64,000 nt of DNA from Haliotis asinina (taxonomy: Eukaryota > Mollusca > Gastropoda > Lepetellida > Haliotidae): NCBI RefSeq assembly GCF_037392515.1, contig NC_090280.1:23379118-23443117 (forward strand). The letters are read 5' to 3'. Shown here piece after piece: positions 5,606 to 45,900 of the stretch (within the stretch, counting starts at the first letter, position 1; each line of letters starts with the position of its first letter). The translations under genes were made by a program, and so were the position numbers. The notes under the pieces are model-generated. The model made no database searches. It was not told the origin of the DNA and saw nothing but the letters and a program-made list of their open reading frames with translations.

Positions 5606-6210
5606 CTGGTTGAGTGTAAAAACGATGAAGTTCTTAGAATGGTTCTGCTGTTTAATATAATATAAAACCTGTGAAGATAGCTTTGGCATCAGCAGTGAAA
5701 ATGGAACGATTGTCGGGAATTGTAGAGGCGACGGTCTTGGATGCAATGACAGTAGCACAATGACCATTATTATTGGATCCCTCTATGAAGATGGACCGAT
5801 GGGTGCTGTATCGAGAACGCAACTGGTTGTATTGCAGTTTGAAAGTGCTATTTCAGATGAACTTTGGAAGGGTCAACCCAGTTGACATGTCGTGAACCTA
5901 ATCAAAATCTTCTTAAGAGGTGTGATGTTACTGGGGTATAAGTGGCATAAAACTCCACTCATTTACTCACTCACTCATACCCACCAATTTACCCGCTCAC
6001 CCCCTCACCCACTCACCCACCCACTCCAATTCGCAGATACGGGGCAGCCCTGGTTACATTTGTAATCCAGGTATAAATTATATCTCTGGTATTTTGTAAT
6101 CACATCATGTACCTTAAATAAAGCAACATATCTTGGATGTTGTTTGTTTCTGAAAAGTAAACAGGATTATACAATGCTAAACTGAATGTTGTCCATATTA
6201 AATGTTTCAG

Positions 6211-6333
6211 CACGCGAGGTTAATGAATCTGGTGTCGTTTCCATCGTCCCAGTGACTGCTGTCTGCTCCATCCTGATCGTGGTCATCGCCGTTGTCGTCA
6301 TAGTTGTTGTTTGTAGAAAACAGAGACGTGGAG
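6211..6333 (+). CDS. TM1 transmembrane exon, left receptor
   Basis: 123-nt phase 1-1 exon (acceptor AATGTTTCAG, donor GTAATA). It encodes REVNESGVVSIVPVTAV, then a strongly hydrophobic stretch (about SILIVVIAVVVIVVV), then CRKQRRG. The basic stop-transfer follows the hydrophobic segment, giving type I topology with the Ig domains outside. The reading frame is open. The same exon of identical length occurs at 30391-30513 (minus) and 60318-60440. Confidence 0.85.
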
Positions 6334-6459
6334 GTAATACAGTGTGATGTGACAGTGAATGACTAGAACTCGAGAGGGACGTGAAGTGGCCTCTCTCACA
6401 AACACTTCTTCACCACTTTGGTTCAGTAATTACGTATACCGATCTCACTTAATAGCATG

Positions 6460-6512
6460 TTGAGCGTGTGCGTGTGCGTGTGCGTGTGCTTGTGCGTGTG
6501 CGTGTGTATGTT
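6460..6512. repeat. (GT)n/(GTGC)n microsatellite
   Basis: GTGTGCGTGTGCGTGTGC tract in the intron after TM1; the mirrored copy is at about 30220-30265. The rest of 6334-8264 shows no recognisable exon or element, although it is conserved in the opposite arm (28456-30390). Confidence 0.85.
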
Positions 6513-8264
6513 GAGTACATCGTCACTATAGCGTCGGAGAGGGTAGTGGGGAGCGGGGAAAAGGGCACGTCAGATATTTACCAGAGTAGTACTTTAAAAC
6601 GTTTTACCCCACACTCATATACATATATACTCCTATAGAAATGTTAAGCAGTACTAATAAGTATTGATTTGATGCCTCTTCTTTGTCTGCAAAACATGTA
6701 ACAATACTTTGGTATGTAGAGTCTGATGTCTATTTCCACCCATACTCAGTAGAAAGCTAGCTGATAATTATTTCACTTCATACTGACATGTGATACATTT
6801 TCAAGGAAATGATGATTTTGTCCTACCTATATCAACTGATTCTCTCCAGGTGTGATTTGTTACGTGTCTGTGGTGTATCTTGATTAAATGTAAAAGTGTC
6901 CTTGAAGGTGACAAATGGTATTCATCAAGGAAGAAGGCCAAGTCTCTTGTGGGGAGATGGAATTTGAGCCAGGCCTTTAAGGAAGAGTTTGAGAGAGAGG
7001 ATAGATTATAAGAGAAGGCGGTGAAAGTATACTGAACTACTTTAAAAACGCATCACTGGGATAAGACATTGAATATCCGTGATAAACGAAGAAAAGAACT
7101 TGTCCTTGTTGAAACCGAAGTCGTCAAACAAGATTGAAACACGAGTAAAATCAAAATTAGTCATTCTCAGTTTAGTGCAAACATGAATTAGCGATAACGT
7201 TGAAGGGGGTCAAATTTATTTCCAAACGCGCTCAAAAGTTTCACAGTCAGTGACAGTAACGGGTATGGCCATCATTTGCATAATCCTGCTGGAAAATGTG
7301 AAGTCGTTGATCTGCCTTCCTGTTGGGAAAAGGAACTCGACCACGACAGACGTGCACATGTGTCCTGCCATCACTACTAATCTCGCTACAAATCATTACG
7401 CCTCCATCATCCCTGCTGAACTCAACAATCAGCGTTACGCTGTCCACGTCGCCCTTGTATATGCATGACTGAGATGAGATCAGGACTCGGCAGTAAAGAG
7501 AATACTTATGCGCACGCAGTCCCAGCTGACGTAATCACAATCGTACCGTCTGGAGACTGACGATATCCCTTCTTCCGTGAATGGTAATGTCTCTTCTGGA
7601 GATTGACTTGAACCTGTTCCTTAAAAAAGAGTGAAGACAATGCGGTGATCTTGAGCTGGACACATGGTTGTCAAGGATGTGCTCGATCACGTGTGGTGCC
7701 AAAGTGAACAATTTGGTGCAGTTCAAACTTTCGGTGTGATTTTGGTGCACAGTTGACTGATCTGACAATGTGTTATGAAAACGTCACGTTTTATGCATTT
7801 TTACGCGATTTGCAGGTGAAAAGGTGATTTCCAGCAAATGGTGGGTCACTTGACCATACAGGAATGCACGTATTTCTTGGTGTGCATCAAGTTCATCTGT
7901 CAAAGTCAGATTACTTCAAGGACAGATTCTGTTCGTTTTGCCTCCTCCATAATGAATGATAATAATATGATACGCGCGTTTCTAAAGTACTTCAGTATGG
8001 AACCTTCAAGTTGATGCTTGAAGAGGATATAAATCAACAGTGTGCACAAATTTACATGTTTAATGGACTTCAGTTTCCAAGTGTTTGCTTCAAGACACTG
8101 GTGTTACTCAGGTTGCGTTTGTTCTACAAACATGTCGTTCTACAAATAGCAAGATGTTTATTTCCACTTGAAAGATGTATAATTATACCGGAAATTCGTT
8201 TATCTTCTATTTTGCATCTAACATTGTGGATATGTCATTATTTACACAAAAGTATTTGTTTCAG

Positions 8265-8738
8265 GTAGAGGATGCACATATTATTGGTGAGTAAGGCAAA
8301 ATGTGTAAACAGCTGACTTAAAATTTTGCAGTAGCTGCTACTTTTCAAGGGTATTGTGGAAACACTTCACCAGAAATACAGTGATTTGATTAGCTATATT
8401 TCACTTATTAGTAGCAGTATATGTGGAGCATAAGCCCAAGCAGAATTAATGGCACATCGCTAATGAGCTGTTGGTGTCAAAAAGATTTCGTTCTTTCAGG
8501 TAAATGTTAGAAGAGCGTGAAATACCGATAAGGCAGAACTTGCTTACCCGTTTTGTGAACACATTCATGCATATAACTGTAACAACTATTTTGTTCCTTG
8601 CAAGATTCTGTGTCTGAGGAAAGCTGATTGTTTTTTGTAAATATTCTTGATTCCAACCACTTTCTACATTTCCTTCCCCCAGCGTTGTCACATACACCCG
8701 TGACGCAGACACAGACGGAGGCTACGAGGAGATAGTAG
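8265..8738 (+). CDS. Tail cassette 1 (22-nt + 56-nt exons), left receptor
   Basis: Exons 8265-8286 (22 nt; TTTCAG / GTGAGT) and 8683-8738 (56 nt; CCCCCAG / GTTGGT). The micro-exon enters in phase 1 and leaves in phase 2, and the 56-nt exon restores phase 1, so the pair adds 26 residues. The product contains VVTYTRD and GGYEEIV. YEEI, if phosphorylated on Tyr, is the classic Src-family SH2 ligand. The cassette is homologous to cassette 2 and to those at 61202-63340. The 56-nt exon donor (GTTGGT) is weak. Confidence 0.7.
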
Positions 8739-9085
8739 GTTGGTGCTGGACGTCATTCTAGTACGCCATGTCAGTTAAATCAGATGACGTTAAACAGGTC
8801 ATACGAATTGTTAAAGGGGTAGCGTTATTTAGAATGTCTGAAAAACAGTCCTGGACTTGTTGCAAGCTGTCAACATTCAAAACTATAGGTCTTTAACATT
8901 TTAAAATCCGTGACAACTATTAGCACTGACTGACCTTCTACTGAAACTCATACCGTATGATGTACAGTTTCTCTTAAACTCTTAAACTTCTAAATGGAGA
9001 AAAAATGGTAACATCAGTGTGCAAGAAGTAAATATATACTTTCAGTTTCTATGCATAATTGTTCCCACACACTTTAAACTTTCAG

Positions 9086-9500
9086 AGAGAGGCTGTGCTC
9101 GTCATCGGTGAGTATGTTCATCAATCTTCAAGTAAGATGAATAAATATTTCATCACCACGTGGGTGTAATTACCCGTGGTAAAGTGGTTTTCATCAACCC
9201 ATGCTTGTCGTAAAAGGTGATGAACGGGATCGATGCTTGTGTTGTTGAACACTGGATTATCTGGCCCAGAACCATTTATTTACAGACCGTCGACATATAG
9301 GTGTCATATTGCTGAGTGCGGCGTTAAACAACAAACCAACCAGACAAAACTATACACGACTTGGAGCGCGATGTGAACTGAGAGCGTGTCCCAGCTTAAT
9401 AATTTCCTCTCATTATGCTCACGTTCAATGTTCACTTTTATCAGTGTGGTGTCGTATCACAGGGAAGACGAAAACGATGGGAGCTACCAGGAAATAGAAG
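9086..9500 (+). CDS. Tail cassette 2 (22-nt + 56-nt exons), left receptor
   Basis: Exons 9086-9107 (22 nt, TTTCAG / GTGAGT) and 9445-9500 (56 nt, TTATCAG / GTTGGT). Frame-preserving 26-residue unit with VVSYHRED and GSYQEIE, paralogous to cassette 1. Between the two exons lies a minus-strand 250-bp-family repeat (about 9190-9350). The exon sequences are the same in the opposite arm except for silent change. Confidence 0.7.
9190..9350 (-). mobile_element. 250-bp gastropod repeat fragment, minus
   Basis: Contains AACACTGGATTATCTGGCCCAGA, the 3-prime CTGAGTGCGGCGTTAAAC border and a shortened middle. Its mirror copy is at about 27380-27545. Confidence 0.65.
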
Positions 9501-9993
9501 GTTGGTGTCTGAAGGTAAACGTAGCTCGAACTGTCTAGTGTCTGAAGCCTGGAACGGGAGTCGTGTCTCAAACCAACCAAGGAGACCAAACCCCAGGTTA
9601 TTTAGTCTGAAATAGCTATAATAGAATAGCTATAACATTGTAAATAGAGTCGGATTTTCTAGATGTCCGAATACTTAGGACATTTCTCAGTATTCATAAA
9701 GGACGACCAGATATTGGTGATAGGCCGTGTTGGGGAAAAGGATCCACTAGTCTGGAGAGCTGTAATGGTCATCCCGGTGAATGATTCTTCCTTATTCATT
9801 ACTTGCTTACTTTATTGCGTTATAGTTCTTGCAGAGCAAAATACTATTTTGTCAGTTGACATTATTTATGTCATAAAGTAAATTAATGCTTTAACAGACA
9901 CTCGAACATACACCATGGTGAAATACGGCGCGTGTATTGTCACTTGGATTATCCTACTTAATACAGATATGTGTCATCTTTGTCTTATATCAG

Positions 9994-10109
9994 AAGGTGA
10001 TGCTAACGTAGACGACATCGTCCCCATCGTAGCTGTCTACTCCGTATGCTGACTGTTGTGGCAGTTGTGATGGCAACAGTCACTGTTCTTGTCTGCAAGG
10101 ACGTGAAAG
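9994..10109 (+). pseudogene. TM2 second transmembrane exon, left receptor, 1-nt deletion
   Basis: Acceptor TTATATCAG, donor GTACAAAG. It begins GDANVDDIVPIVAVYSV, then one base is missing compared with the intact 117-nt exon at 26549-26665 (CTCCGTATGC against CTCCGTTATGC). The frame ends at TGA. In the intact copy this exon encodes an acidic stalk, a hydrophobic segment and VCKDVK. Confidence 0.8.
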
Positions 10110-10524
10110 GTACAAAGAATGCATAAATAATTTTGCATGCAATGTAAGTTTCAACCCACCTCCAATCCCCAACACTGAACAACCAACAGAAACTTACCCC
10201 AACGTGCAGGGCCTGGTCAGAACCTGTCTTCAACAACCATGCTTGTTACAACAGGTGAGAAACGCTGGCTGATTATGCTCATGCATGTTTATCTCCCGTA
10301 TCCCAGTTGCGTAAATCGACGCTCTTTATATCAACCACTGGGTGTTCTCGGCAAGTCTGGCATATATCCGACAAGCGACAAGCGTAGTCTAGCTGGGATA
10401 TTGTTGAATGCAGCCTCGAACAGTATACGGGCATATCCGTGGTTCACCTTGACGTGCTGCAATATTTTCTTCTCATTTTAGTTTGTGAAGTGTGTTTTGA
10501 TTCGTTTATTCAGTAATGGAGCGG

Positions 10525-10640
10525 TCGGTAGGTCAGTGGATAAGGTGTTCACAGACGCAGGTTCGATTCCCCATATGAGTATAATGAAGCCATATTTATG
10601 GTGTTCTGGTTTTGGTGATGTTGATGGACTATTCTGAGTG
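10525..10640 (+). mobile_element. tRNA-headed SINE
   Basis: A-box-like GGTAGGTCAGTGG and B-box GGTTCGATTCC are spaced as in a tRNA-derived Pol III promoter. A diverged body follows (ATGAAGCC, GTGATGTTGATGGA). The inverted counterpart is at about 26040-26160. Confidence 0.7.
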
Positions 10641-10723
10641 CGACTAATTCTTTACTGTTACTCAGTGTTGGATGAATCGATCAGTTTAGAAATGTACAAG
10701 TTTGTCTTTTGTTTTACTTGCAG

Positions 10724-10739
10724 AGAACCAGGACAACAG
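10724..10739 (+). CDS. 16-nt micro-exon between TM2 and ITAM exon
   Basis: AGAACCAGGACAACAG between TTACTTGCAG and GTACACG. Phase 1 in, phase 2 out, adding E-N-Q-D-N and part of the next Arg. It is identical at 25932-25947 on the minus strand. It is needed to connect TM2 (ending phase 1) with the ITAM exon (starting phase 2), which is the main reason to accept so small an exon. Confidence 0.6.
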
Positions 10740-11083
10740 GTACACGTTTTCATGTTTTTATCTTAAGTGCTGGAGTCAGTCATCGTAATAACTAGTGAAC
10801 AAATCTTCATATGAACGGTTGCTGTCTTCTGTGTCAAACACCATTTACTCAACGTACCTTTAAAAATCATAGACTGTAAGCCGCCATCGATTACCTGTGG
10901 AAATGACAGAGAAAGTAGCAAATGTATCTATGTAACTGAAGCACAATTTGCTAAACAAGTGTTGGAAATCTATGATCATAGTTGAGGTGGTTTATAGGAG
11001 GTGATTTCCGCTGCACACTGCTTGAAAGAAAAATACATGCACCTCTGGGCAAGTGTAACATAAGTGTAATGTTGTGATTACAA

Positions 11084-11267
11084 ATTTGGTGAATATCTCA
11101 CTGTGATGGCAGAGAGATTATGCCATGACTTCAGTGATGTACCTCGTGCTTCCAACAACGATGTCTTACCCCTATACGATTACGAACGACTAATGCGGGA
11201 TCAGTTCCACATCTACACGTCTCTCCATCCTTCATCTTCCTCAACAGAGGAGCACAGTACCAGGTGA
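11084..11267 (+). pseudogene. ITAM tail exon, left receptor, acceptor lost
   Basis: 184 nt with a 60-codon frame ending in TGA at 11265-11267, aligned with the intact exon at 25405-25588. The ITAM is preserved as YERLMRDQFHIYTSL at 11181-11225. The splice acceptor that reads ATTACAG in the intact copy reads ATTACAA here, and the first Cys codon is Phe. Use of the exon is therefore doubtful. Confidence 0.65.
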
Positions 11268-11575
11268 AACCTAAACTGACGGTACAGTTCCACGTCTACA
11301 CGTCTTTCCATCCTTCATCTTCCTCAACAGAGGACCACAGTGTCAGGTGAAACCTAAACTGACGGTACAGTTCCACGAGTACACGTCTTTCTATCCTTCA
11401 TCTTCCTCAACAGAGGACCACAGTACTAGGTGAAACCTAAACTGACGGTGCAGTTTCACATCTACACGTCTTTCCATCCTTCATCTTCCTCAACAGAGGA
11501 CCACAGTACTAGGTGAAACCCAAACTGACGGTACAGTTCCACATCTGGACGTGTCTCCACTTTTCAACAGAGGCT
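11202..11575 (+). repeat. 83-bp tandem repeat overlapping the ITAM exon end
   Basis: Four units at 11202, 11285, 11368 and 11451, plus a partial one at 11534. Each contains CAGTTCCACATCTACACGTC, a C/T-rich stretch, CAACAGAGGACCACAG and AGGTGA. The first unit is the coding end of the ITAM exon. The others repeat the second ITAM tyrosine, the Ser/Thr tail and the stop in the putative 3-prime UTR. The opposite arm has about two and a half units. Confidence 0.85.
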
Positions 11576-11979
11576 ATACAGTTTAACATCTCAACAAGCT
11601 AACGTTTCAGCTGACAAAACAAAAGTACTTCATTTACTAATCACCCAACAACAGGCAATGTTTGCCAAGATGCCATTTTTAACAGAGGATTGTACTGGTA
11701 TTGGTCTCTGAGCTTAACTGATGTATATCAAAGTATATTAACAACACTGATTTAGCATCAACATTCTTATTCAAGTAATAAAGTTAAAACCTTTTATTTT
11801 CGTTTCATGAAACTTATGTTATATTCCATCAACAGCGATAATGTGAAAACACAATTTTTCAATCAATATAGCTTTAACCTGTTTTATCAGAAACATTTAA
11901 CTCTTATGCTTTCTCAACACACCGATCAACATTTTATTACTCATCCGTTGTAGATATCACTGTTAGGTAATTTTAGAAA

Positions 11980-12054
11980 GTTATTACACATTGTGTAATA
12001 ACATCACGTGATGGCGTACGTATGACGTCAAAGTGTTTTATTGTTATGACGTCA
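11980..12054. promoter_or_regulatory. Perfect 11-bp hairpin and two TGACGTCA sites
   Basis: 11980-12002 is an 11+1+11 perfect inverted repeat around GTTATTACACA. Two full CREB/ATF-type palindromes TGACGTCA follow at 12023-12030 and 12047-12054, 24 bp apart. In the opposite arm one palindrome survives near 24810 and the other is mutated (TTAACGTCA). A regulatory role is only possible; it could equally be part of a MITE. Confidence 0.35.
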
Positions 12055-12200
12055 AAATGCTCATACCTCGGTTACAATAGCATTAGACCTTGCTTGACTC
12101 TCGGAAAGCTTAGTGTCATCACACTCGTTGAATTCCTAGTAAAGAAGTGATTTGCTCGATATTATTTTGCTAATGCTGGGTGAGTAATAAATAAAATACG

Positions 12201-12329
12201 AAACTGTGTCCCGTGTAACACCATATTTATGAAACTCGTGAATGGTATCGGTATCTAACGAGCGAAAGCGATTTAGATACCAAACCATTCGCTCGTTTGA
12301 TAAATAAGGTATTACATGGGACATAGTTT
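12201..12329. mobile_element. Palindromic MITE, family 1 (left arm)
   Basis: The outer 30 bp at each end (AAACTGTGTCCCGTGTAACA... and its near reverse complement) match at about 25 of 30 positions. The inner part is also self-complementary around CGAGCGAAAGCG. There is no coding capacity. Mirror copy at 24512-24640. Confidence 0.75.
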
Positions 12330-12925
12330 AGTTTTCTCTGTATATCAAACACTACACACATAATAGGATTGCACATGGTAATTTGCACATGAGCTAAATG
12401 GATGGGCTTGTCGGCTAAGGCTCCACAATTTCTTAATTCCATAAGTCATCAGTAACAGATCGGTTTCCGATTGTGATCTTTTGATTGTCAGCACCTCAAA
12501 TAAATATAATACCCATTTTCAACATACATGGACACGCGTGCACGGACACACACGCACGCACGCACGCACGCACGGACTAACACTCTCACACACGATTCAA
12601 TAAGAATCGTTAAAAATCGTTAAATCGTTGTTTTTATGTCTTCTATAAATGCTTTGAAAGTTTTACTTTAGTTTTAAATGCTGCAAATTTGATCAACCAG
12701 ATTACTTAAAACAGATGTCGAACATTGTGCAGGAATGTGCAGAATTCACAGTACTGCTATCCTACTTCCGGATTGGTATCACTCTGCCTAGAATGTATTC
12801 CTCAGGAAGTATTTGTCATAGGAGTGACGTATCGTGAGCAGTAGCTTAACACCAGCTGACATTTGAACAACTGTTAACAACCCGTTTCATGCAGATATCA
12901 GTCAACCACTCGTGTAAAAAAATAG

Positions 12926-13071
12926 AGAATCTTACTCTGGTGTTTCCTGATATCAAATATATCAACACAAGTTGATAAAGTAACAAATATCCGAGGCTTG
13001 GCAAGGATAATTTTACCTTTACCAACGGGTATTGATATAACTGATATCAGGAAACACGAGAGTGAGATTCT
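12926..13071. mobile_element. Palindromic MITE, family 2 (left arm)
   Basis: Inverted ends AGAATCTTACTCTGG...TGATATCA and TGATATCAGGAAACACGAGA flank a 90-bp AT-rich core with TTGATA words. The mirror copy is at 23763-23908, and a diverged third copy at about 59151-59289 lies in a different receptor copy. Confidence 0.75.
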
Positions 13072-16000
13072 GTTTATCATCCAAAATCATTCTTGATTAG
13101 TTTTCAGTGAAAACTGTGCATGTCTGAAGACAGCACTGCCATCAAACTTCCAGTGCATCGATGTCATAACATTGTGACATTATCGAGTTCATGACGTCAT
13201 ATCATTGTCAGGGCTTTGTGGAAAATCTACCATCAAAACGATATCTCTTAGATGTCGTCTGATCTGACACAATCCATATATCCTGCAGTACACAGTTTTG
13301 GATGATAAATGCTGAAGTTACAAATGGAATGTAAAATAACACCCTTCGAAAATGATACAGCCGTGTATTTCTGTACTGTGGCACAGAAAATGATTTTAAC
13401 TGTACGTGGTTTCAGATCGGACAAAGGCACGAGACAGTTTTCAATGGAGCTGTGCGTAATAGATCGTTAATGACCAGGAAGGAAGACGTCATTACATACT
13501 GGTTCTTAAAATATGTATTCCAACTACTTCATGTTTCCACTTACCAGTCTGTCATTACACGTCCAGTCATCAAAGACATGCTCTTCTAGCAATACCATTG
13601 CTTTCTGTTTCTTGTCTTTAATTCCTGTTTGACACTTCTCTTCCTCGGGGGTTTTGCAATTGCTAGTTTCTTGAGGTATGCTGCCAAAAGTACCCTTTCA
13701 GAAAGTATAACTTCTAGGTTTAGAATTGCAGAAGCGATGGGAGTGAGAGTCCGGTTCAAGCGAACATTTTAATCTTGCCACATGTCCTGCACTAAATATG
13801 CTATGATTCATTGTGCATATATGATACTCTAACTTAAAATTTCATGGAACATTTATATGTAAGAATATACAAAGGATTTCTGCCACATATACCCAATACT
13901 GTGTAGGTTTGTGTCGATGCCTTCACTCCAAGAAAGCTTCTACATACAAAGTTGTGAATGGTTTGTATATTTGTTACGCTCTCTAACTCAGCAAACATCA
14001 GATTCATGAAGTAAAATAGGAATAATTTTAGTGTCAAATATCTTGAATAATTGAAACGGAATTGGTATAAATCTATGTAATATCTGTCATAGTACAGTGC
14101 GAGAGAGTTAGGGAATCAGTTCGCTTGGTAAGAGGTCTGACCATACCAAATCCATACACAACATATTAGTAAAGGGAAATAAGAATGTTCTAATTATCAC
14201 CATGAATTTATTGCATATTATGTTGAAACTGATGAGGCAATATGAGTAATCCTTACCTAGTTAATGGACCAGAAACTATTTGCTTCACTTTATTCATTCT
14301 TCTGGTATTTGAGTAACCACGTGTTTCCAGAAGACTGAATTATGCATCAACTTTTTGCAATTGAATGGTTGCACCTCCCGACAGAATTAAGAGGAAATGA
14401 AATCTGGAAATAGTCCATCTTATGATTCTGTTGTGAGATGTAAAAAGGAATTTTTCAACCGATTATATGTCCTTGACAGATGAGTCAAGATCTGGCCACC
14501 ATTTTGACGTTACCAGTGAGGTCATTGAAGAAACGGTGTGTTGGTTAAGCGTTAACAAAATCTTTTACAATTAATTATTACAACATGTTCACAGAGCAAT
14601 CAGCCATTAAAGGACCTACACATGACATGTAGATTTGTTACAGATACTAGAATGGTCAGGATAATTGTTCAATTAATACTCTACACGTCACCACTGTGGA
14701 CGTTCACAGAATCTACATTTTCACAAAACAACGTAGTGTTAAGAGTCTTATATAAACAAATTTAAACATTAATGCGCAGAATACATGAACCATACGATAA
14801 AGGCTGAACCGTTGCACATCAACCTGAAGTTAGTGTAAAGGGAAACAAACAGTAAAGATATGTTCATTTGATTAAAGTTAACATAGAATAGGAACACTAA
14901 AGACTTCTCGGACTAGAAGACAGTAACGATCTATACTTGACTGAATTTACTAGACTCCCTGATTTGTGACTGTAGTCCATATTCTATTCTATTCTAGCTA
15001 TCACAGATAATCGCGTTAACAGACAAAAAAAAAAAAACTTACGATGGCGTTGTTTTGTTGTGAAATTGAGATTATGTCATGTAGTTAGGACGAAGCATCG
15101 ATGGCCAGTCGCAAGTATTCCACGAAGGCATATGTGGTAGGGGATTTGGCCCTGGGCCATATACACTCAATACAGAAAAACGCACAACGCCTTGGTTCTG
15201 TTAGCTTTAGAGATACTGGTCCCGGATATTCGTTACCAGTGTGAACTTTGACATGGTTAAGACTGAGAAGCATGGTCAGTTAGTTTTAATATCTCCAGTT
15301 TTCAATAACACATCAAATATGCTTATTCCACGATGATATATTAGAAGCAACTAATAACCAGATACGTATACAATGGCACGCACTCGAGAGATTTTTTTAC
15401 CAATTATACCAACTGCCACTTCTCACGGGAATACCACCATGTTTTAAAACAGCCACTTCAGTTTTATCCCATTTAAAATGCGTATCCCTTTCGGCAAACC
15501 ATAATGAAAACGGTTCAATCATCTCCGGACGAAACTAGATATTAGGTTTACATGTGTATTCAGTTCACATGCTATTTAGAAAGAGAATAGATATATGGCT
15601 AAGGATATATAACCCTGTCGTCAAATCAAGGCTTAACACATGAAGGTTCTCGAGTGTATATAGCTTGTACGCCATTTAACATTTTTGAAGAAACTCCTAT
15701 CCTTCCCAAAATCATTCATGGTTGATCAAATCTACAATTAGAGCATAAACTTCCCACTTTTTTATACAAACCGTGAAATCACGGGAATAAATATGCATGT
15801 CAATGTACACTATCTCTCATCAAAATCCGGCCTTTAATTCCACGGGTTTGTCTTAGGCAATTGTCCAAAATGTACGACGTTTTTTCTAAATAGATACCTA
15901 TTTTTTTCTAAAGATGCTTGAAATTATGAGATCGGAAAGAGTCACGACACAAACTGAAAGTCTGTAGATTCGTGACCTTACTATGGACGGCAGCTATAAT

Positions 16001-16079
16001 ACTAGGACACGCCATCAGCACACGAACAGTCTTTCCACGACTTGGTATGGCTGGCACGTTCCTTCCGTGCAATGCCTTT

Positions 16080-16330
16080 TATCCCCCGTCTACACCGCTA
16101 ACGCCGACTGCAGCTGGAAGTGGGTGCCAGCGACGTGATTGGTAGAGAGTGCTGTCTTCTGATGAATGTTGGATCGGTCTGTTCAGAAACGGCGGCTGGG
16201 CTTTTCGATGTATCGTAGGGTCTTCAAGGAAAGAGACGTCTTGGTATAAGGCGGCATTTGAGGCGACAGAACAACTAAAACTGTACTTTTATCGTCGGAC
16301 CTGTAGACCTCTGTAGTCCCCCTCTGTCCT
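16080..16330 (+). pseudogene. Tc1-like transposase relic
   Basis: Broken frames read DECWIGLFRNGGW and QLKLYFY, which align with the better kept relic at 40.9-41.14 kb (FIDECLDQSVQRRRQYF, GRGVMVWGAF). Those words are typical of the catalytic-core region of Tc1-family transposases. Many stops and frameshifts are present; it is not functional. Confidence 0.5.
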
Positions 16331-16789
16331 CCTGTGGAATCCCTTTAATTTCTCATTTCAGTCAGTGAACTTCTTCCTTCTTCGGGTGAACCTTGCGAGT
16401 TAATGTCTTAACATGTGGCAGTTTTAGCACTTGGGACGTTATTGAGCCATTCCATGCCGGTTTGAGAAAATACAATAAAGGCAGGAAAGAAAAAGCAGAG
16501 TATACTGAAGTGCTCCTTGCCTAATTTCTGTGAGGTGATGAAAGTCTCACGGCTCTTACCAATAACAGAATTTTGGTCGGCCTAAAACTCAAACTGAAAA
16601 CCTCATGTTTCACATTTGTCAGAAGAAACAGCACATACGGCATGAATAGTTTTCACTGCTACAAAATGTTTATAATAGCCAACTAACTATTCCAGTCGAA
16701 TATTCCAAATAACCGCTTTATTCCCTCACAATATCTTCAAACTTGTAAACTGTATTTGTAAACTGTATTATAGGCAAACAGGCCGGCAT

Positions 16790-16960
16790 AATGAATAAAA
16801 CAATCTGTCTGACTAACGAAATCTGGTGACTCGCTGACCTAGTTGAGAAATACCATGGTATTCCGATTGAGCAGGTTGATGCTCATGCTATTGATCACTA
16901 GATTGTCTGGTCCAGGCTCGATTATATACAGAGCTCTGCGATATAGCTGCAATATTACCT
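16790..16960 (-). mobile_element. 250-bp gastropod repeat, minus
   Basis: The reverse strand has GAGCCTGGACCAGACAATCTAGTGATCAA, GAGCATCAACCTGC and GTCAGCGAGTCACCAG. It is mirrored at 20100-20255 and recurs at 38520-38680. Confidence 0.75.
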
Positions 16961-17494
16961 ACCAAAAGCAGTTTTGTGAATAATCTGTCATCAACGTTAC
17001 TTGTCTGTCCATATGAATGTAAACACCTAATTAAAGGTTAAGACCTCGTAGGCATGTGTTAAAATTCAACCGGAAGTTACCGTTTTTTCTAGGGGAATAT
17101 TATCCAGCGAAACTAAATATTTCATCTCTTGAAAACAATTGTTAAAGTGCGTGATGTGTCAGTATGAATTTACCACGCTTGTAGGTAGGTCTTTGGCTTG
17201 CATTCTGTTTTGGGGCTTACGTGCATGCGGCATGTACCTGTCAGCTGAAAAGAACATTAGTTGAATTACATGAGCTTTACATGACTTTTTATAAGTGACC
17301 AGTTTTCTCTAATAAAACATTATTCAGAGAAATTAGATAGTTTGACGCCTTAATTTCTGGTTTACATATCGTTTGCTTGCCTGTATAGGTGCCATGTATC
17401 TGTCAACTTGTAATATATTGAGAGGGCTTAAATAATGTGGTTTGAATATTTATGTCAGCCTTGTTTTCATGAGTAATATTTGTTTTGAGTGCAG

Positions 17495-17843
17495 CTCTAG
17501 TCTCCATGACAACTGGATACCCATACACTGTTACACGTGTTGGTGAAGATGTTACCATGGCCATGAACCCAAACAATGTCAGCTTCTTATATTATGCATG
17601 GGTGAATGGTTCGGTATCTAAGAGACTGTTACTGGTCCAGTCCAAGTCACACCGTGTAGATGTACTCAACAGTAGTCGGCTACAGGACCAGGATCAGATA
17701 CACCGAGGAGGACTCACCATCACAGACCTGACAACTGAGGTTTACCATCTACAATGTTATTGTACAGGACGATGGTACTTACTACTGTCAGGGAAACAAT
17801 GGACAGGAAGTTACTGGATGTAGACATGTCCTCGTTGTAGCGC
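17495..17843 (+). pseudogene. Orphan V-like Ig exon, central left, frameshifted
   Basis: Good acceptor (TTTTGAGTGCAG) and donor (GTGAGTGG). It is 349 nt because five bases are missing in the segment that reads ACAGTCACACCGGC at 713-1066. After NSS the frame shifts and F-strand DAGTYYC is lost from it. No leader or downstream Ig exon follows on this strand before the palindrome axis. Confidence 0.85.
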
Positions 17844-17945
17844 GTGAGTGGAGTTAACAGAACAGTATATAAGTAAATGAATGAGCCTAAACTAAAACGT
17901 AATTAACCATACGTGTGTGTATGCGTGCGTGTGTTCATGCGTGTG

Positions 17946-19128: not shown

Positions 19129-19225
19129 AAAAAAGCTCATGCATGCATACACACACGTATGGTTAATTACGTTTTAGTTTAGGCTCATTCATTTACTTAT
19201 ATACTGTTCTGTTAACTCCACTCAC

Positions 19226-19574
19226 GTGCTACAACGAGGACATGTCTACATCCAGTAACTTCCTGTCCATTGTTTCCCTGACAGTAGTAAGTACCATCGT
19301 CCTGTACAGTAACATTGTAGATGGTAAACCTCAGTTGTCCGGTCTGTGATGGTGAGTCATCCTCGGTGTATCTGATCCTGGTCCTGTAGCCGACTACTGT
19401 TGAGTACCTCTACACGGTGTGACTTGGACTGGACCAGTAACAGTCTCTTAGATACCGAACCATTTACCCATACATAATATAAGAAGCTGACATTGTTTGG
19501 GTTCATGGCCATGGTAACATCTTCACCAACACGTGTAACAGTGTATGGGTATCCAGTTGTCATGGAGACTAGAG
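19226..19574 (-). pseudogene. Orphan V-like Ig exon, central right, frameshifted
   Basis: Mirror image of 17495-17843, also 349 nt, with the same 5-nt deletion after the NSS codons. Acceptor GAGTGCAG and donor GTGAGTGG are kept. Sharing the lesion means it arose before the inversion or was copied between arms. Confidence 0.85.
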
Positions 19575-25277: not shown

Positions 25278-25470
25278 GTGGAGACACGTGCATATGTGGA
25301 ACTGTACCGTCAGTTTGGGTTTCACCTGGTACTGTGGTCCTCTGTTGAGGAAGATGAAGGATGGAGACACGTGCATATGTGGAACTGCACCGTCAGTTTA
25401 GGTTTCACCTGGTACTGTGGTCCTCTGTTGAGGAAGATGAAGGATGGAGAGACGTGTAGATGTGGAACTG
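25278..25470 (-). repeat. 83-bp tandem repeat at ITAM exon end (right arm)
   Basis: About two and a half units of the repeat seen four to five times at 11202-11575, with CCTCTGTTGAGGAAGATGAAGG on the plus strand. The first unit on the minus strand is the coding end of the ITAM exon. Confidence 0.85.
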
Positions 25471-25588
25471 ATCCCGCAGGAGTCGTTCGTAATCGTATAG
25501 GGGTAAGACATCGATGTTGGAAGCACGAGGTTCATCACTGAAGTCATGGCATAATCTCTCTGCCATCACAGTGAGATATTCACCACAT
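25405..25588 (-). CDS. ITAM-bearing final exon
   Basis: 184 nt: one base completes the Arg codon left by the 16-nt exon, followed by 60 codons and TGA (25405-25407). It has a good acceptor (TGTGATTACAG). The peptide runs CGEYLTVMAERLCHDF, an acidic middle, then LPLYDY and the motif YERLLRDQFHIYTSL (25447-25491). This is YxxL-x7-YxxL, matching the ITAM consensus YxxL/I-x6-8-YxxL/I. A Ser/Thr-rich end HPSSSSTEDHSTR follows. In known receptors a doubly phosphorylated ITAM recruits Syk-family tandem SH2 kinases. Assignment to the receptor is by phase, order and conservation in both arms. Confidence 0.7.
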
Positions 25589-31500: not shown

Positions 31501-34500
31501 AAAGTTCGCAATAATAACAAAGTAAAGCTAGTAGAGATTGAAATTACCAGTCTTCGATAAATAGTCCATTAAACATTAACATCATGTATTGTGTCATAAA
31601 ATGGAAAATTAGTCATGAACCCCTGATTACGGGTTGTTATGGTTATCTGTTAGTGGTTGAATCTTTGGGTGTCATTACTGTTGGTGTTCCAGCGGGTGCT
31701 CCATAAGGTTAAGGTGAACAGAAAGGCAGGCGTCATCCATGTTTTGTTGCAGATTTCATTATTGAAGTGTTGACTTACAGAAGACCTCCAGTGTCAGGTT
31801 CCGTGATGAACTTCCATGGCTGTTGTTGACGTGACACGTGTACTGTCCAGACACAGACACATCTACAGCTGGTATGTACAACACAGCCTCCCTGTGTCCT
31901 GTCACCACCACCTGTCTGGATGTGTCCCACCAGGTTACAGTGCAGGCAGGGTTACAGTCAGCAGAACATCTCACTGTTACAGGTTTCCCTTCTTCTACCT
32001 CCAGCTTATCCCTTGCGCCTTCAAAGTGTACCTGGTCAGGTCCATCTGTAATGCATGTGAGATGGTCAGTTAACATCGGAAATCTATTTCTGAGATATAA
32101 GTTTGCGTCTATGACGTAAATGTAAACAATAAAGACAAGCTGCTTGGTTTGGTCTGTGGAATTCACACTAATGACAAACCTCCATGTCTCGTATCAAGTT
32201 GTGTTTTCCTCCCACAATAAGTACAGGCTACAGCTGGGACACCGTTGTAACTCACTCACCCACTGGGTTGCTATGTGTAACTCTTGACAACATATCCGAG
32301 TGATCTTACAGTGACGTCATACCACGACCCCGTTCCTCAAAGCGATCTTAGAGCTAAGACGATTGTTACTCCCATACTTTACCATAGACGATTGTTACTC
32401 CCACACTTTATCATAGACGATTGTTACTCCCATACTTTACCATAGACGATTGTTACTCCCATGCTTTACCATAGACGATTGTTACTCCCATGCTTTACCA
32501 TAGACGATTGTTACTCCCATGCTTTACCATAGACGATTGTTACTCCCATACTTTACCATAGACGATTGTTACTCCCATACTTTACCATAGACGATTGTAA
32601 CTCCCATGCTTTACCATAGACGATTCTTACTCCCATGCTTTACCATAGACGATTGTTACTCCCATACTTTACCATAGACGATTGTTAATCCCATACTTTA
32701 CCATAGACGATTGTTACTCCCATGCTTTACCATAGACGATTGTTACTCCCATGCTTTACCATAGACGATTGTTACTCCCATACTTTACCATAGATCATTG
32801 TTACTCCCATACTTTACCATAGACGATTGTTACTCCCATACTTTACCATAGACGATTGTTACTCCCATGCTTTACCATAGACGATTCTTACTCCCATACT
32901 TTACCATAGACGATTGTTACTCCCATACTTTACCATAGACGATTGTTACTCCCATGCTTTACCATAGACGATTGTTACTCCCATGCTTTACCATAGACGA
33001 TTGTTACTCCCATACTTTGCCATAGACGATTGTAACTCCCATGCTTTACCATAGACGATTGCTACTCCCATACTTTACCATAGACAATTGTTACTCCCAT
33101 ACTTTACCATAGACGATTGTTACCCCCATACATTACCATAGACGATTGTTACTCCCATACTTTACCATAGACGATTGTAACTTTCATACTTTACCATAGA
33201 CGATTGTTACTTACATACTTTACCATAGACGATTGTTACTCCCATACTTTCACATAGACGATTGTTACTCCCATACTTTACCATAGACGATTGTTACTCC
33301 CATACTTTACCACCGACGATTGTTACTCCCATACTTTCACATAGACGATTGTTACTCCCATGCTTTACCATACACGATTGTTCCTCCCATACTTTACCAT
33401 AGACGATTGTTACTCCCATGCTTTAACATAGACGATTGTTACTCCCATACTTTACCATAGACGATTGTTACTCCCATACTTTCACATAGACAATTGTTAC
33501 TCCCATACTTTCACATAGACGATTGTTACTCCCATACTTTAACATAGACGATTGTTACTCCCATGCTTTCACATAGACGATTGTTACTCCCACACTTTAC
33601 CATAGACGATTATTACTCACATACTTTACCATAGACGATTGCTACCCCCATACTTTACCATAGACGATTGTAACTCCCATACTTTACCATAGACGATTGT
33701 TACTCCCATACTTTACCATAGAGGATTGTTACTCCCATACTTTACCATAGCTTATTGAAACTCTCCTAGTTTACCATAGACGATTGTTACTCCCATACTC
33801 TAACATAGACGATTGTTACTCCCATACTTTACCATAGACGATTGTTACTTACATACTTTACCATAGACGATTGTTACCCCCATACATTACCATAGACGAT
33901 TGTTACTCCCATACTTTACCATAGACGATTGTTACTCCCATACATTACCATAGACGATTGTAACTCCCATACTTTACCATAGACGATTGTAACTCCCATA
34001 CTTTACCATAGACGATTGTAACTCCCATACTTTACCATAGACGATTGTTACTCCCATACTTTACCATAGACGATTGTTACTCCCATACTCTACCATAGAC
34101 GATTGTAACTCCCATACTTTACCACAGACGATTGTTACTCCCATACTTTATCATAGACGATTGTAACTCCCATACTTTACCATAGACGATTGTAACTCCC
34201 ATACTTTACCATAGACGATTGTAACTCCCATACTTTACCATAGACGATTGTAACTCATACTTTACCACAGACGATTGTTACTCCCATACTTTGTCATAGA
34301 CGATTGTAACTCCCATGCTTTACCATAGACGATTGTTAGTCCCATACTTTACCATAGACGATTGTAACTCCCATACTTTACCATAGACGATTGTAACTCA
34401 TACTTTACCACAGACGATTGTTACTCCCATACTTTACCATAGACGATTGTAACTCCCATACTTTACCATAGACGATTGTTACCCCCATACTTTACCATAG

Positions 34501-37500
34501 ACGATTGTTACTCCCATACTTTACCACAGACGATTGTTACTCATACTTTATCATAGACGATTGTAACTCATACTTTACCACAGACGATTGTTACTCCCAT
34601 ACTTTACCATAGACGATTGTAACTCCCATACTCTACCATAGACGATTGTTACCCCCATACTTTACCATAGACGATTGTAACTCCCATACTTTACCATAGA
34701 CGATTGTAACTCCCATACTTTACCATAGACGATTGTTACCCCCATACTTTACCATAGACGATTGTAACTCCCATACTTTACCATAGACGATTGTTACCCC
34801 CATACTTTACCATAGACGATTGTAACTCCCATACTTTACCATAGACGATTGTTACCCCCATACTTTATCATAGACGATTGTAACTCCCATACTTTACCAT
34901 AGACGATTGTAACTCCCATACTTTACCATAGACGATTGTAACTCCCATACTTTACCATAGACGATTGTAACTCTCATACTTTACCATAGACGATTGTTAC
35001 CCCCATACTTTATCATAGACGATTGTAACTCCCATACTTTATCATAGACGATTGTAACTCATACTTTACCACAGACGATTGTTACTCCCATACTTTACCA
35101 TAGACGATTGTAACTCCCATACTTTACCATAGACGATTGTTACCCCCATACTTTACCATAGACGATTGTAACTCCCATACTTTACCATAGACGATTGTAA
35201 CTCCCATACTTTACCATAGACGATTGTTACCCCCATACTTTACCATAGACGATTGTAACTCTCATACTTTACCATAGACGATTGTTACCCCCATACTTTA
35301 CCACAGACGATTGTTACTCCCATACTTTATCATAGACGATTGTAACTCCCATACTTTACCATAGACGATTGTTACCCCCATACTTTACCATAGACGATTC
35401 TTACTCCCATACTTTACCATAGACGATTGTAACTCCCATACTTTACCATAGACGATTGTTACCCCCATACTTTACCATAGACGATTGTAACACCGATACT
35501 TTACCACAGACGATTGTTACTCCCATACTTTATCATAGACGATTGTAACTCCCATACTTTACCATAGACGATTGTTACTCCCATACTTTACCATAGACGA
35601 TTGTAACTCCCATTCTTTACCATAGACGATTGTTACCCCCATACTTTATCATAGACGATTGTTACTCCCATACTTTATCATAGACGATTGTAACTCCCAT
35701 ACTTTACCATAGACAATTGTTACTCCCATACTTTACCACAGACGATTGTTACTCCCATACTTTACCATAGACGACTGTTACTCCCATACTTTACCATAGA
35801 CGATTGTTACCCCCATACTTTACCATAGACGACTGTTACTCCCATACTTTACCATAGACGATTGTAACTCCCATACTTTACCACAGACGATTGTTACTCC
35901 CATACTTTACCATAGACGATTGTTACTCCCATACTTTATCATAGACGATTGTTACTCCCATGCTTTCACATAGACGATTGTTCCTCCCATAGTTTAACAT
36001 AGACGATTGTTACTCACATACTTTACCACAGACGATTGTTACTCCCATACTTTACCATAGACGACTGTTACTCCCATACTTTACCATAGACGATTGTTAC
36101 CCCCATACTTTACCATAGACGACTGTTACTCCCATACTTTACCATAGACGATTGTAACTCCCATACTTTACCACAGACGATTGTTACTCCCATACTTTAC
36201 CATAGACGATTGTTACTCCCATACTTTATCATAGACGATTGTTACTCCCATGCTTTCACATAGACGATTGTTCCTCCCATAGTTTAACATAGACGATTGT
36301 TACTCACATACTTTACCACAGACGATTGTTACTCCCATACATTACCATAGACGTACGACAGTTCGCTTTGAGGAACGAGACCCAGCTGCAGTTTTCTGAA
36401 ACTTTCAACGGATCATTGAAGCAAACTTGCCACTAATTCCTATCCGAACGTACACAATATTAATTTCTGTTCTGTTTACACAACAAAGACAAGTTGTCAC
36501 AAAACTGTCACTTAAAAACAGAGTTTCAAGGAGAAGTAATGCTTCTGTTACCTAAAACAAGGTAGGTTCTTACTCACAGAGGACATCCAGTACATGTTCG
36601 TGACTCCAGTCAGACTCCAGACCCTCCTCCACAGCCTGGCACCTGTAGGTGTCTCCCTGGTTCTCTCTGCTGACGTGGGTTATTGTCAGGTCATCTCCAC
36701 CTGTAGGGGACTCATCACCAGATTCTAGCAGGGTCCTGTCCCTCCTCCAGATGTAGGCCATGACCAGTGAGTTGTCGTCCGGGGGTAGACTCCGGGAGGA
36801 GGAGAAACATGTGAGGGTGACATTCTCACCTGATACAGGTGAGGCAGGTCTGGTGATGGTAGGTGTGACTGGCTTCTCTGTGTAAAATGTAACAGCTGTG
36901 CTGTAACCTTACCACGGGTCTCATTGTACAAGATTTCCCTAACTCCTTTATACTTGTATTTATATGCTATTCATCATTATTATCCATCAATTGTTAAACA
37001 GTTAAAGTGTTCACTCGTCACGCCAAAGATCCTCCTTCTCCCTCCCTCCCTCCCACACTCACTCACTCACTCACTGACTCACTCAGTGTTCCACAGTTAC
37101 AGCAGGGAATACGTGTTGGCTGGATCGTAAAACTCCAATTGTTGATTAAATGTGATAATTACCACACAACTACTGGCTGAATCGAGTTAAACGTACTTTC
37201 GAGAGAGAGGCATTAAAAGATTGTGAGACTGATAGACTCGGATACACTTATCCATGTTAACCTGCGATAAAGCTTCATTGTCGGTAAGTATAGAAGAACC
37301 AGCATTTCTTTGGAATAGTTGACATACACACCATACACACAATACACACAGTCACACACGCACATTAACACGCAATACACATAAGCACACACAAAATACA
37401 CACATGCAGTCACACAATACACACACGCACAAACAGTACACAAAAGCACACACACAATACACACATGCACACACGCGCGCACGGGCACTCGCACACTAAC

Positions 37501-42930: not shown

Positions 42931-45900
42931 GTAAGTATCTTGTAGTTGGCATTTTACGTTATGTCCTTTCAATTCGTAACATTCTATCAATTGTAAACCG
43001 CACATGACGTTTTGATGATGAGCATATTGCTTTGCATACAGGTTTTGTCTACATGACAGCTGGATACGAACACACTGTTGCGCGCGTAGGCGACGATGTC
43101 GGCGTAACCATGAGCCCAACGAATGTCAGCTTCCCATATTACGCATGGGTGAATGGTTCGGTTGCTGTGAGACTGTTACAAGTCGTGCCCAGAATGCATC
43201 GTTTATTAGTACTCATTAGTAGTCACTCCGGCTACAGGATCAGGTACGGAGTGACGGACTCACTGTCACGGCTGAGGTTTACCATCAGCAATGTTACTGT
43301 GCAAGACGCTGGTACCTACTACTGTCAAGGAACCGACGGACACAGTGCTGCAGGATGTACACAGCTCCTCGTCGTAGCGCGTATGTAGTAACGTGGAATT
43401 AACAGAATAATATTTTAAGGGGTTCAACGCTTTAACCGTTTAACATTTGATGGATAATAGTGATAAATAGTATATACATTTACAAAAGTATAAAGGATTT
43501 ATTAAAATCTTGACACTCGTGTTAAGGTCTCGGTGAATTTCACATTTTACACAGAGAAGCCAACCACACCTACCACCACCGGACCTGCCTCGCCTGTATC
43601 AGATGAGAATGTCACCCTCACATGCTCCTCCTCCTCTCGGAGTCTACCCCAGGACCATCACCCACTGACCATGACCTACATCTGGAGGAGGGACAGGACC
43701 ATGCTAGAATCTGGTGATGAGTCTCCTACAGGTGGAGATGACCTGACAATAACCCACGTCAGCAGAGAGAACCAAGGAGACATCTACAGGTGCCAGGCTG
43801 TGGAGGAGGGGCTGGAGTCTGACTGGAGTCACGGACATGTACTGGATGTCCTCTGTGAGTAAGAACCTACCTTCTTTCGATATAGTTGAGTTGAGCTGCA
43901 CTTTACGCTACATCGGCGTTATTGCAGCCATATAGGAACCTCCTGGATGTAATATGTGCAACTGTGCGACAGTTTTGTAAGAACTGTTTCTGGTTTTGTT
44001 TGAAAAACAACATTTCTCTCCTAAAAATCAAAGCCTTTTTGCTGGAATAAATCTATAATCTTAATAGTCTTGTCAAAGTTTCAACTACATAGAACTTTTA
44101 GTTTTAGAAGCCAAGTCTGAATGCATGCATGATCACTAGTCACTAAAAACAGTTCCATGTCGCTGTAGCTCACGTGGACATGTTTTACAAATTTTAAAGG
44201 GGGTGAGTGAGCGAGTTACGGGAGCTTTTAGCGGTGTTCCATATCAGTTGCCCATATAATATTTCTTAGCAATAAATACGAAGGATCATTCACTCACACT
44301 AATGATGACGGTATATGACGTCATAATAACAAGTACTTCCCTAGATTTATATTCCTCGGGTGAAGGTGGTGTACCCTGGTGGATAAAGCGTTCGCTCTTG
44401 GCGCCAAAGATCTGGGTTCCGTTTTCCACACGGCCTCATCGTGTGAAGGCCATTTCTGGTGCTCCCCGTCGTGATTCTGATGGAATATTGCTAAGTGTTG
44501 TAAGGTCTTCAGGCCCACATAACACAACACAGATACGAGGGGCTGTCAATAAGTTTTGAGCCTTGAGCATTTTTCATACCTAGGTGTCACAACCTATGGT
44601 ACGACATTGAACCTTGGGGTGTAGCTGATGTGATATATAAGTTTTGGTATCCTACTCTCAGAAGTTATTGAACAGCTCTCATTGACAGAAAGAGACCCCC
44701 CTCACGGCAGTGAAAATGATTAAAATTGAGTATAGAGCAGTAATTATGATTTTAGTTCTTGAAGGAAACTCGGCGAAGAACAGTGAAAAAAGGCTTTCAG
44801 CAGTTTATGGGAAGTCTTCTCCTTCATCTGCTACCATCAAACGATGGGTCAATGAATTTAAGCATGGTATAGAGAGTCTTGAAGATGACTCCCGTCCAGA
44901 TCGCCCAACAACAAGCAGTAGTCAGGAAAACATTGTCAGAGTGCATAGACTTGTGCTGGAAAATCGTCGAATCACACTCCACGAGTTAGAGGAGACCACA
45001 GGCATTTCACACGGATCCATCGAGACAATTCTTCATGAACATCTCGTCATGTCTAAGGTGTGCGCAAGATGGGTGCCAAGAATGCTTATAGATGAAATGA
45101 AGCAAACAAGGGTCACCATGAGCAACTCCATGCTAACCAGATACAACAAGAATCCAGAAGATTTTCACTTTAGGCTAGTAACCTGTGATGAAACCTGGAT
45201 CCACCACTATGATCCTGAGAGCAAACAAGAATCCATGGAATGGAAACATGTCACTTATCCCAGGAGCAAACAGTTCAAAGATCAGTGCAGAAGGTAATGG
45301 CGACAGTCTTCTGGGATAGCAAAGGCGTCACCCACATAGATTACTTACCAAAAGGAAGAACAATGAATGGGGAATATTACGCTAACTTGTTGAGGCAAGT
45401 GCAACAGTCAATCAAGGAGAAGCGCCGGGGCAAGATCAGACGTGGTATTCTTCTACATCAAGACAATGCGCCAGTACACACCTCTCGCGTTGCAACTGCT
45501 GCTGTCCAGGAATGCGGGTACGAAATCTTGCTGCATCCCCGCTACTCTCCAGACCTGGCACCAAGTGATTACCATCTGTTCCCAGATCTCAAGAAACACT
45601 TGCGTGGTCATAGATTTCAGGATGATAATGAGCTTATTGCTGCTACTGAGGCTTGGTTTGAGGACCAAAATGGCGCCTTCTACAGAGATGGCATCAGCGC
45701 CTGGCAGAAAAGATGGAACAAGTGTCTTGGCTCACAAGGGGACTATGCTGAAAAATAAATGTGGTTCATACCAATATTTTGTGTTTTTCTATGCAAGGCT
45801 GAAAACTTATTGACACAAGACGTTTACTGGACGAAGACAAAGACAAGACTGACAACAATCGAAAAACGATCTCGCATCACAGTTTATGAGTCCACGTGCA

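Follow-up and report, generated by a model that had tools for sequence, protein, structure and literature searches.

We find that the minus strand of the window (the whole 64,000-nucleotide stretch of Haliotis asinina DNA analysed here) carries a member of a tandemly amplified IgSF receptor family, found so far only in Haliotis, in which a signal peptide (in complete models), a V-type Ig domain, two further Ig domains, a first transmembrane segment (TM1), two short cassettes and a second transmembrane segment (TM2) precede a tail with an ITAM. The explanation that we favour, with moderate confidence, is that splicing leaves each receptor with one TM segment, which would place the ITAM tail in the cytosol as a docking site for Syk and make these activating receptors. 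An activating immune-type receptor with a built-in ITAM had been proposed at this locus by a first-pass annotation of the sequence; its observation is confirmed by our analysis, and its interpretation is partly supported. What the finding is worth will be decided by which TM exon is used, because the side of the membrane on which the ITAM lies depends on that choice.

Structure of the window gene

The gene consists of 11 recognised exons (Table 1), with GT-AG borders throughout and one uninterrupted reading frame of 502 codons ahead of the stop, in the order V-Ig2-Ig3-TM1-cassette A-cassette B-TM2-16-nt exon-tail. The features of an IgSF receptor are present, namely Pfam Ig matches on three exons, TM segments and, in complete models such as P0002 and P0003, a hydrophobic leader at the start (judged by eye); no leader exon was located within the recognised 11-exon structure of the window gene. 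Preceded by an AG acceptor and joined in phase 2 to the 16-nt exon, the tail exon translates as CGEYLTVMAERLCHDFSDEPRASNIDVLPLYDYERLLRDQFHIYTSLHPSSSSTEDHSTR followed by a stop, the wording being CGEYLTV...PLYDYERLLRDQFHIYTSLHPSSSSTEDHSTR-stop, and its ITAM core is spelled YERL-LRDQFHI-YTSL, that is, YxxL-x7-YxxL.

The first-pass annotation had given this exon the same coordinates, motif and frame, and it had linked the exon in phase, through the 16-nt exon, to a TM exon, our TM2; phases 2 and 1 and the splice borders agree with it on this point. It had also placed that TM exon at the end of an Ig-Ig-Ig exon series. The series and the TM exon are in frame with each other but do not adjoin, since the TM1 exon and four small exons lie between them, and the annotation had overlooked both this first TM exon and the two cassettes, whose peptides end in YEEI (A) and YQEI (B). 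The TM1 exon (123 nt), each cassette (22 + 56 nt) and the TM2 exon (117 nt) can each be skipped without loss of frame. When the donor of the TM1 exon of the window gene is read through, the protein ends in GGNTV-stop.

Two repeats lie within the gene. A short tandem repeat of ~4 kb (ACAATCGTCTATGGTAAAGTATGGGAGTA type) fills the Ig2-Ig3 intron (window about 32360-36400). A second tandem repeat, of 83 bp, begins within the tail exon, and its units repeat QFHIYTSLHPSSSSTEDHSTR and the stop region; as the units begin inside the exon, the ITAM's second half forms the opening unit of a minisatellite. This repeat occupies about 11200-11560 and about 25290-25470 of the window, it is also found on the 3' side of the tail exon at eight genomic loci, and model P0002 reads on into it.

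Table 1. Positions of the features discussed in the text (window coordinates unless a contig is given).
Feature	Position	Strand	Evidence
V-type Ig exon, phase 1 in and out	37974-37627	-	Pfam ig 1.2e-05 (over cut-off), V-set 1.5e-04 (below cut-off)
Second Ig exon (Ig2)	36877-36578	-	Pfam ig 3.1e-08
Third Ig exon (Ig3, I-set)	32045-31779	-	Pfam I-set 1.2e-09
TM1 exon, 123 nt: Val-rich TM segment, then CRKHRRGG	30513-30391	-	exon frame mapping
Cassette A, 22-nt small exon	28455-28434	-	exon frame mapping
Cassette A, 56-nt exon, ...VVTYTRDADTDGGYEEI...	28038-27983	-	exon frame mapping
Cassette B, 22-nt small exon	27635-27614	-	exon frame mapping
Cassette B, 56-nt exon, ...VVSYHREDENDGSYQEI...	27279-27224	-	exon frame mapping
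TM2 exon (TM exon of the first-pass annotation), 117 nt, phase 1-1	26665-26549	-	exon frame mapping
16-nt exon, phase 1 to 2, ENQDNR; entered in phase 1 from the TM2 exon	25947-25932	-	exon frame mapping
Last coding exon (tail): YLTV and ITAM YERLLRDQFHIYTSL, then stop	25588-25405	-	frame, AG acceptor
ITAM core YERL-x7-YTSL	25491-25447	-	motif search
Left-arm copy of the tail exon (YERLMRDQFHIYTSL)	11084..11267	+	acceptor AA instead of AG
Syk-type exons: SH2-N, start of SH2-C, two kinase exons	C7:18025671-18131950	-	pattern, SH2 search, PDB matches

A tandem array of receptor genes

A genome search with the tail identified at least 57 full-length copies of the tail exon, all on contig C1; the number is a lower bound, as 150 of 332 candidates were scored. 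Fifty-five of the copies lie, on both strands, in a 1.22-Mb array (C1 22.348-23.573 Mb) and two more near 28.06-28.09 Mb, and one of the 57 has a stop within the aligned stretch. The best H. asinina gene models are 85-86% rather than 100% identical to the window's protein, and thus are paralogues of the window gene. Mapping from the V exon to the tail was possible for 11 gene copies, drawn from 200 kb (C1 22.48-22.68 Mb) and the window, and all 11 have the order V-Ig2-Ig3-TM1-A-B-TM2-tail. Under the exon structure of the window gene, 9 of the 11 are free of internal stops (A9 counts among the nine with four of its exons masked). At the aligned position A3 and A8 lack an AG acceptor for the V exon, and the stop lies away from the reference place in A8 and A9. 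The other two copies are A6, in which the V exon aligned poorly, one exon was unplaced and the frame was lost, and the broken left copy of the window. The V exon has a dN/dS of 0.66 (10 copies), and a crude sliding count over 12 copies gave peak nonsynonymous/synonymous ratios of ~1.1-1.3 around and after the second conserved cysteine, values that would fit, weakly, a diversifying binding edge.

Within the window, the right gene and a broken left partner are convergent, tail to tail, in an inverted duplication (5761-17931 versus 30965-19138, pieces 92-97% identical). The left arm had been described as keeping the motif with a single L-to-M change. That change is present, but it falls outside both YxxL cores (YERL-M...), and the copy is broken: besides its altered acceptor, the aligned positions show 22 nt missing from the Ig2 exon and 1 nt from the TM2 exon. 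With these frame-shifting deletions the left-arm gene is probably a pseudogene, and we rejected it as independent support because it is the broken half of an inverted duplication.

The window holds further pieces of the family. V-like fragments with stop codons lie near the centre of the duplication (window 17648-17848, plus strand, and 19221-19421, minus strand), and a V and an Ig2 exon stand without the remaining gene at 43053-43382 and 43554-43859 (plus strand); model P0010 joins such V/Ig2 exons to a further gene. A third, more diverged family gene occupies 57417-63342 (plus strand) and beyond; its V exon is only about 24% identical, and the copy at C1:23444943-23445119, a little beyond the window, is probably its tail exon. 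Frames inside the array at window 44686-45758 (plus strand) and 48043-45980 (minus strand) are what we take, by their appearance, to be transposase-like and retroelement pol-like.

Two TM exons and the side of the membrane

We collected 31 predicted tail-bearing gene models from four Haliotis species (13 asinina, 6 rubra, 3 rufescens and 9 cracherodii), leaving out P0013, P0023 and P0050, in which TM2 is present and no tail was recognised. Both TM1 and TM2 are found in 30 of the 31, including P0002 and P0016, which have both segments without the cassettes; P0019 is the only tail-bearing model that runs TM1 straight into the tail. If these models are taken literally, Ig domains outside the cell and two membrane crossings put the ITAM outside as well. 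The first-pass proposal is supported as to a Haliotis IgSF gene with an ITAM-type tail in frame, joined models in four species and a Syk-type kinase gene, but the two TM exons, present in all 11 mapped copies, make the cytoplasmic side of the tail less than certain, and the activating or immune role is a putative one.

One explanation for this arrangement is a two-pass protein, with the Ig domains outside, TM1, a cytosolic loop carrying SH2-binding YEEI/YQEI motifs, TM2 and an extracellular tail whose ITAM-like sequence would play no part in signalling. The constant presence and order of both TM exons agree with such a protein, as do the conservation of TM2 (dN/dS 0.48, bootstrap 0.19-0.92, 10 copies) and the retention of two Y[EQ]EI-type loop motifs in 27 of the 31 models. 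However, the charges flanking TM2 are opposite to those of an N-in/C-out segment. For TM1 the mean flank charges are -1.4 on the N side and +4.0 on the C side, which is the more positive side in 30 of the 31 models; for TM2 the N flank is acidic (-6.0) and the C flank neutral (0.0), with the C side more positive in 28 of 30, a pattern that argues for TM2 being a second N-out/C-in segment. The tail also has few N-glycosylation sequons. The ectodomains contain 246 over 9385 residues, the loops 0 over 1881, and the stretches from the tail start to the model end 8 over 2424 (read-on in chimaeric models included). The first 60 tail residues hold 4 in 1822 (300 shuffles: mean 10.9, lowest 4) and the loops of 18 of the 31 proteins 0 in 1010 (shuffles: mean 4.3, lowest 0), figures that are suggestive only because the sequences are related.

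A third point against a two-pass protein comes from three sister models, two of H. cracherodii (P0057, P0058) and one of H. rubra (P0067). Their Ig domains are related; their tails have diverged in other respects and yet retain YETL-x8-YMAL, YETL-x8-YTAL and YVSL-x8-YTAL. In P0067 a single Val-rich TM segment stands directly before the related tail (C flank +8, N flank +3); this model has 2 sequons after the TM segment, so that scarcity of sequons is not a rule of such tails. A module search detected no TM segment in P0057 and P0058 as modelled. Since a two-pass protein would, in addition, leave invariant tyrosines at ITAM spacing unexplained, we regard it as unlikely.

The flank charges, the few sequons and the single-TM sister model argue instead for a cytosolic ITAM tail, and from them we infer alternative use of the TM exons: because TM1, the cassettes and TM2 are frame-neutral blocks, splicing could supply one TM exon per receptor. 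TM1 resembles TM2 more than most shuffles do (9, 18 and 0 of 2000 shuffles score as high in three hand-picked genes), a likeness that exon duplication would produce. If translation continues past the TM1 donor, the protein soon stops, with the ending xGxTV-stop, in 11 of 11 copies; P0032 and P0039 are models with this ending.

Other models share the ectodomain and not the tail. P0031 and P0064 (H. asinina) and P0035 (H. rubra) have a related ectodomain with another tail that contains YATV, TYADL/P and YEEI/YEQI, and are candidates for inhibitory or paired partners. We did not take the NCBI model names (CEACAM, Siglec, nectin, CD22-like) as orthology, since they are source labels only, and a fold search was rejected as a classifier, its matches being generic three-Ig proteins (Necl-4, nectin-1) obtained with a weak model (mean pLDDT 60.2).

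A Syk-type kinase gene in the same genome

A degenerate pattern for the Syk/ZAP-70 activation segment had one match in the genome (C7:18025839), and the reversed control had none. The best single-domain PDB matches of this exon were ZAP-70 (80.5 bits) and SYK; the top row was an EGFR entry, ranked there by the sum of two copies at 47 bits each. The same entry came first by sum for a second kinase exon (frame C7:18040303-18040671), for which SYK was closest by single domain. Regular expressions recovered no SH2 exon in some 17 kb beyond the catalytic-loop exon, the SH2 exons being further off: an SH2 search gave matches on the same strand at C7:18131651 (39 bits), 18112186 (23.4 bits) and 18125709 (17.8 bits, below cut-off). 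By their sequence, an N-terminal SH2 domain seems to be split between 18131651 and 18125709, and 18112186 resembles the start of a second one. The closest PDB entry was SYK for the first half of SH2-N (5.6e-15) and ZAP-70 (4e-11), followed by SYK, for the start of SH2-C; the remainder of SH2-C and the other parts of the kinase were not recovered at the C7 locus. We conclude that the genome contains a Syk-type SH2-SH2-kinase gene, predicted from exons spread over about 106 kb of C7.

Conservation of the ITAM tail

A well-spelled ITAM is common by chance. A search of all six reading frames of the window gave 14 strict matches, where 20 random first-order Markov sequences had 7.55 on average (range 3-12), and we rejected a motif match alone as evidence. 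It is recurrence and conservation, not the pattern itself, that lift the motif above chance. The 57 genomic copies of the tail encode 43 distinct proteins, and both ITAM tyrosines are kept in every copy and belong to the invariant positions, 8 of 60. Strict YxxL/I-YxxL/I is kept in 42 of the 57. The first half of the motif is relaxed in this full census, position 36 being variable (L 42, I 1, V 9, P 4, F 1), and position 47 is L in 56 copies and L or F in all 57.

Across 48 distinct sequences, the tail as a whole had a dN/dS of 0.47; within it the ITAM stretch had 0.30, compared with 0.44 for the part preceding the stretch and 0.76 for the part following it. Random sets of 16 codons were as constrained as the ITAM stretch in 2032 of 10000 draws, so that the constraint on the stretch does not significantly exceed that on the remainder of the tail. 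A sharper contrast at the ITAM among 10 copies (0.19; 298 of 10000) was dropped because it weakened in the 57-copy census, and an early count of 23 of 23 intact genomic tails was set aside as biased, most of them having been chosen by the motif itself.

The predicted proteins extend this conservation to the four species, with both tyrosines in 31 of 31 tails, L36 in 30 and L47 in 29. The frame is therefore conserved in related species, as the first-pass annotation requires, and predicted models join the ITAM exon to Ig exons. Similar tails in other proteomes were confined to the genus: protein matches to the TM2-tail part came from Haliotis in 34 of 34 cases in a word-based search. When the sister tail of P0058 was the query, this search matched P0058 itself and P0057 only and missed P0067, so that the lack of matches beyond Haliotis has to be read within the limits of a word-based search.

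The two Yxx-hydrophobic motifs might also be read as endocytic sorting signals (adaptor-binding YxxPhi) or single-SH2 sites and not as an ITAM pair. Sorting signals have the consensus YxxPhi, which the residues at position 36 (L/I/V/F in 53 of 57) and position 47 fit better than they fit strict YxxL/I. Sorting signals are not known to need a fixed pair, however, and a spacing in the ITAM range is kept, at 7 in the tail family and 8 in the sister models; this spacing and the Syk-type exons in the genome make such a reading quite improbable. That the motif arose by chance in a decaying or non-coding exon, as the ease with which the strict pattern arises at random, the strict consensus broken in 15 of the 57 copies and the broken left copy could suggest, is already contradicted by its conservation in models of four species, and invariant tyrosines in 57 copies encoding so many distinct proteins, with the dN/dS over the tail, leave it barely credible.

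A model for the receptor family

The tail is thus best read as an ITAM, and in the model that we favour the variable V-type domain would bind ligand and a Src-family kinase would phosphorylate both ITAM tyrosines; the abalone Syk would then dock on the phosphorylated ITAM through its tandem SH2 domains and start activating signalling in haemocytes. Splicing would pick one TM exon per receptor. A cytosolic ITAM could arise either as Ig-TM1-cassettes-tail, with TM2 skipped, or as Ig-TM2-tail, with the TM1 block skipped, and the TM1 read-through form may serve as a tail-less decoy. A bolder version, which we put forward tentatively and consider doubtful, makes the choice of TM exon a topology switch, by which one splice form would show YEEI/YQEI and/or the ITAM to Syk in the cytosol, a tail-less form would be made, and a two-TM form would silence the ITAM outside the cell; the array would then hold more than 50 diversified, splicing-gated ITAM-type receptors.

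The significance of the locus lies in the occurrence, in one molluscan genome, of an ITAM-Syk pair and a large, much-copied Ig receptor family, in animals that lack antibodies. A cytosolic tail would mean that antigen-receptor signalling, in its combination of diverse Ig ectodomain, ITAM and tandem SH2 kinase, has an extensive protostome counterpart.

Comparison with known systems

FCGR2A is a vertebrate receptor with a built-in ITAM, and the CEACAM and Siglec-like proteins are paired receptors. The abalone genes are like these in having an Ig ectodomain and an ITAM in one polypeptide and in forming tandem families, with tails that differ; the comparison with CEACAM and Siglec goes no further than that, since the abalone model names are labels and the fold search gives generic proteins. 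Draper, in Drosophila, is an EGF-type engulfment receptor from a single gene, in contrast to the abalone Ig array, and the abalone kinase exons match Syk/ZAP-70. Draper-I is reported as an ITAM receptor that works with Src42A and Shark, and the splice form Draper-II has an ITIM instead (PMC4503800). Draper-I and Shark are thus alike to the abalone system as an invertebrate ITAM receptor with a Syk-related kinase, and the two Draper forms are a precedent for splicing deciding the use of an ITAM (PMC4503800). Invertebrates have a single Syk-like gene plus SHARK, according to a review (PMC10253181).

The rarity of such receptors outside chordates, which the first-pass annotation had mentioned, is a fair description but not an exclusive one, since Draper (PMC4503800) and, as reported, the Hydractinia Alr genes (PMC12065747) have ITAMs. 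The latter source attributes ITAM and ITIM motifs to the Alr genes and ITIM and hemITAM motifs to the receptors of Botryllus, a chordate (PMC12065747). The Alr genes, whose description as a gene complex comes from a reference title only, are by their description alike in being IgSF-type candidate allorecognition genes with ITAM/ITIM outside vertebrates; the abalone genes differ in having two TM exons and one conserved ITAM exon across an array.

A further known system is the oyster receptor CgIgIT2, which a review describes as having five Ig domains, a TM segment and a tyrosine motif and as expressed mainly in haemolymph (PMC11999971). By this description it is likewise a molluscan Ig receptor with a TM segment and a tyrosine motif. 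The review calls its motif a classic ITAM, whereas the title of the primary paper that it cites says immune inhibitory receptor, so that the motif may be an ITIM (PMC11999971). Among the matches listed from open-licence papers there was no abalone ITAM receptor and no primary paper on a molluscan ITAM receptor. We conclude that, while invertebrate ITAM receptors were already known, the array, the genus-wide conservation and the two-TM layout of the Haliotis family are new.
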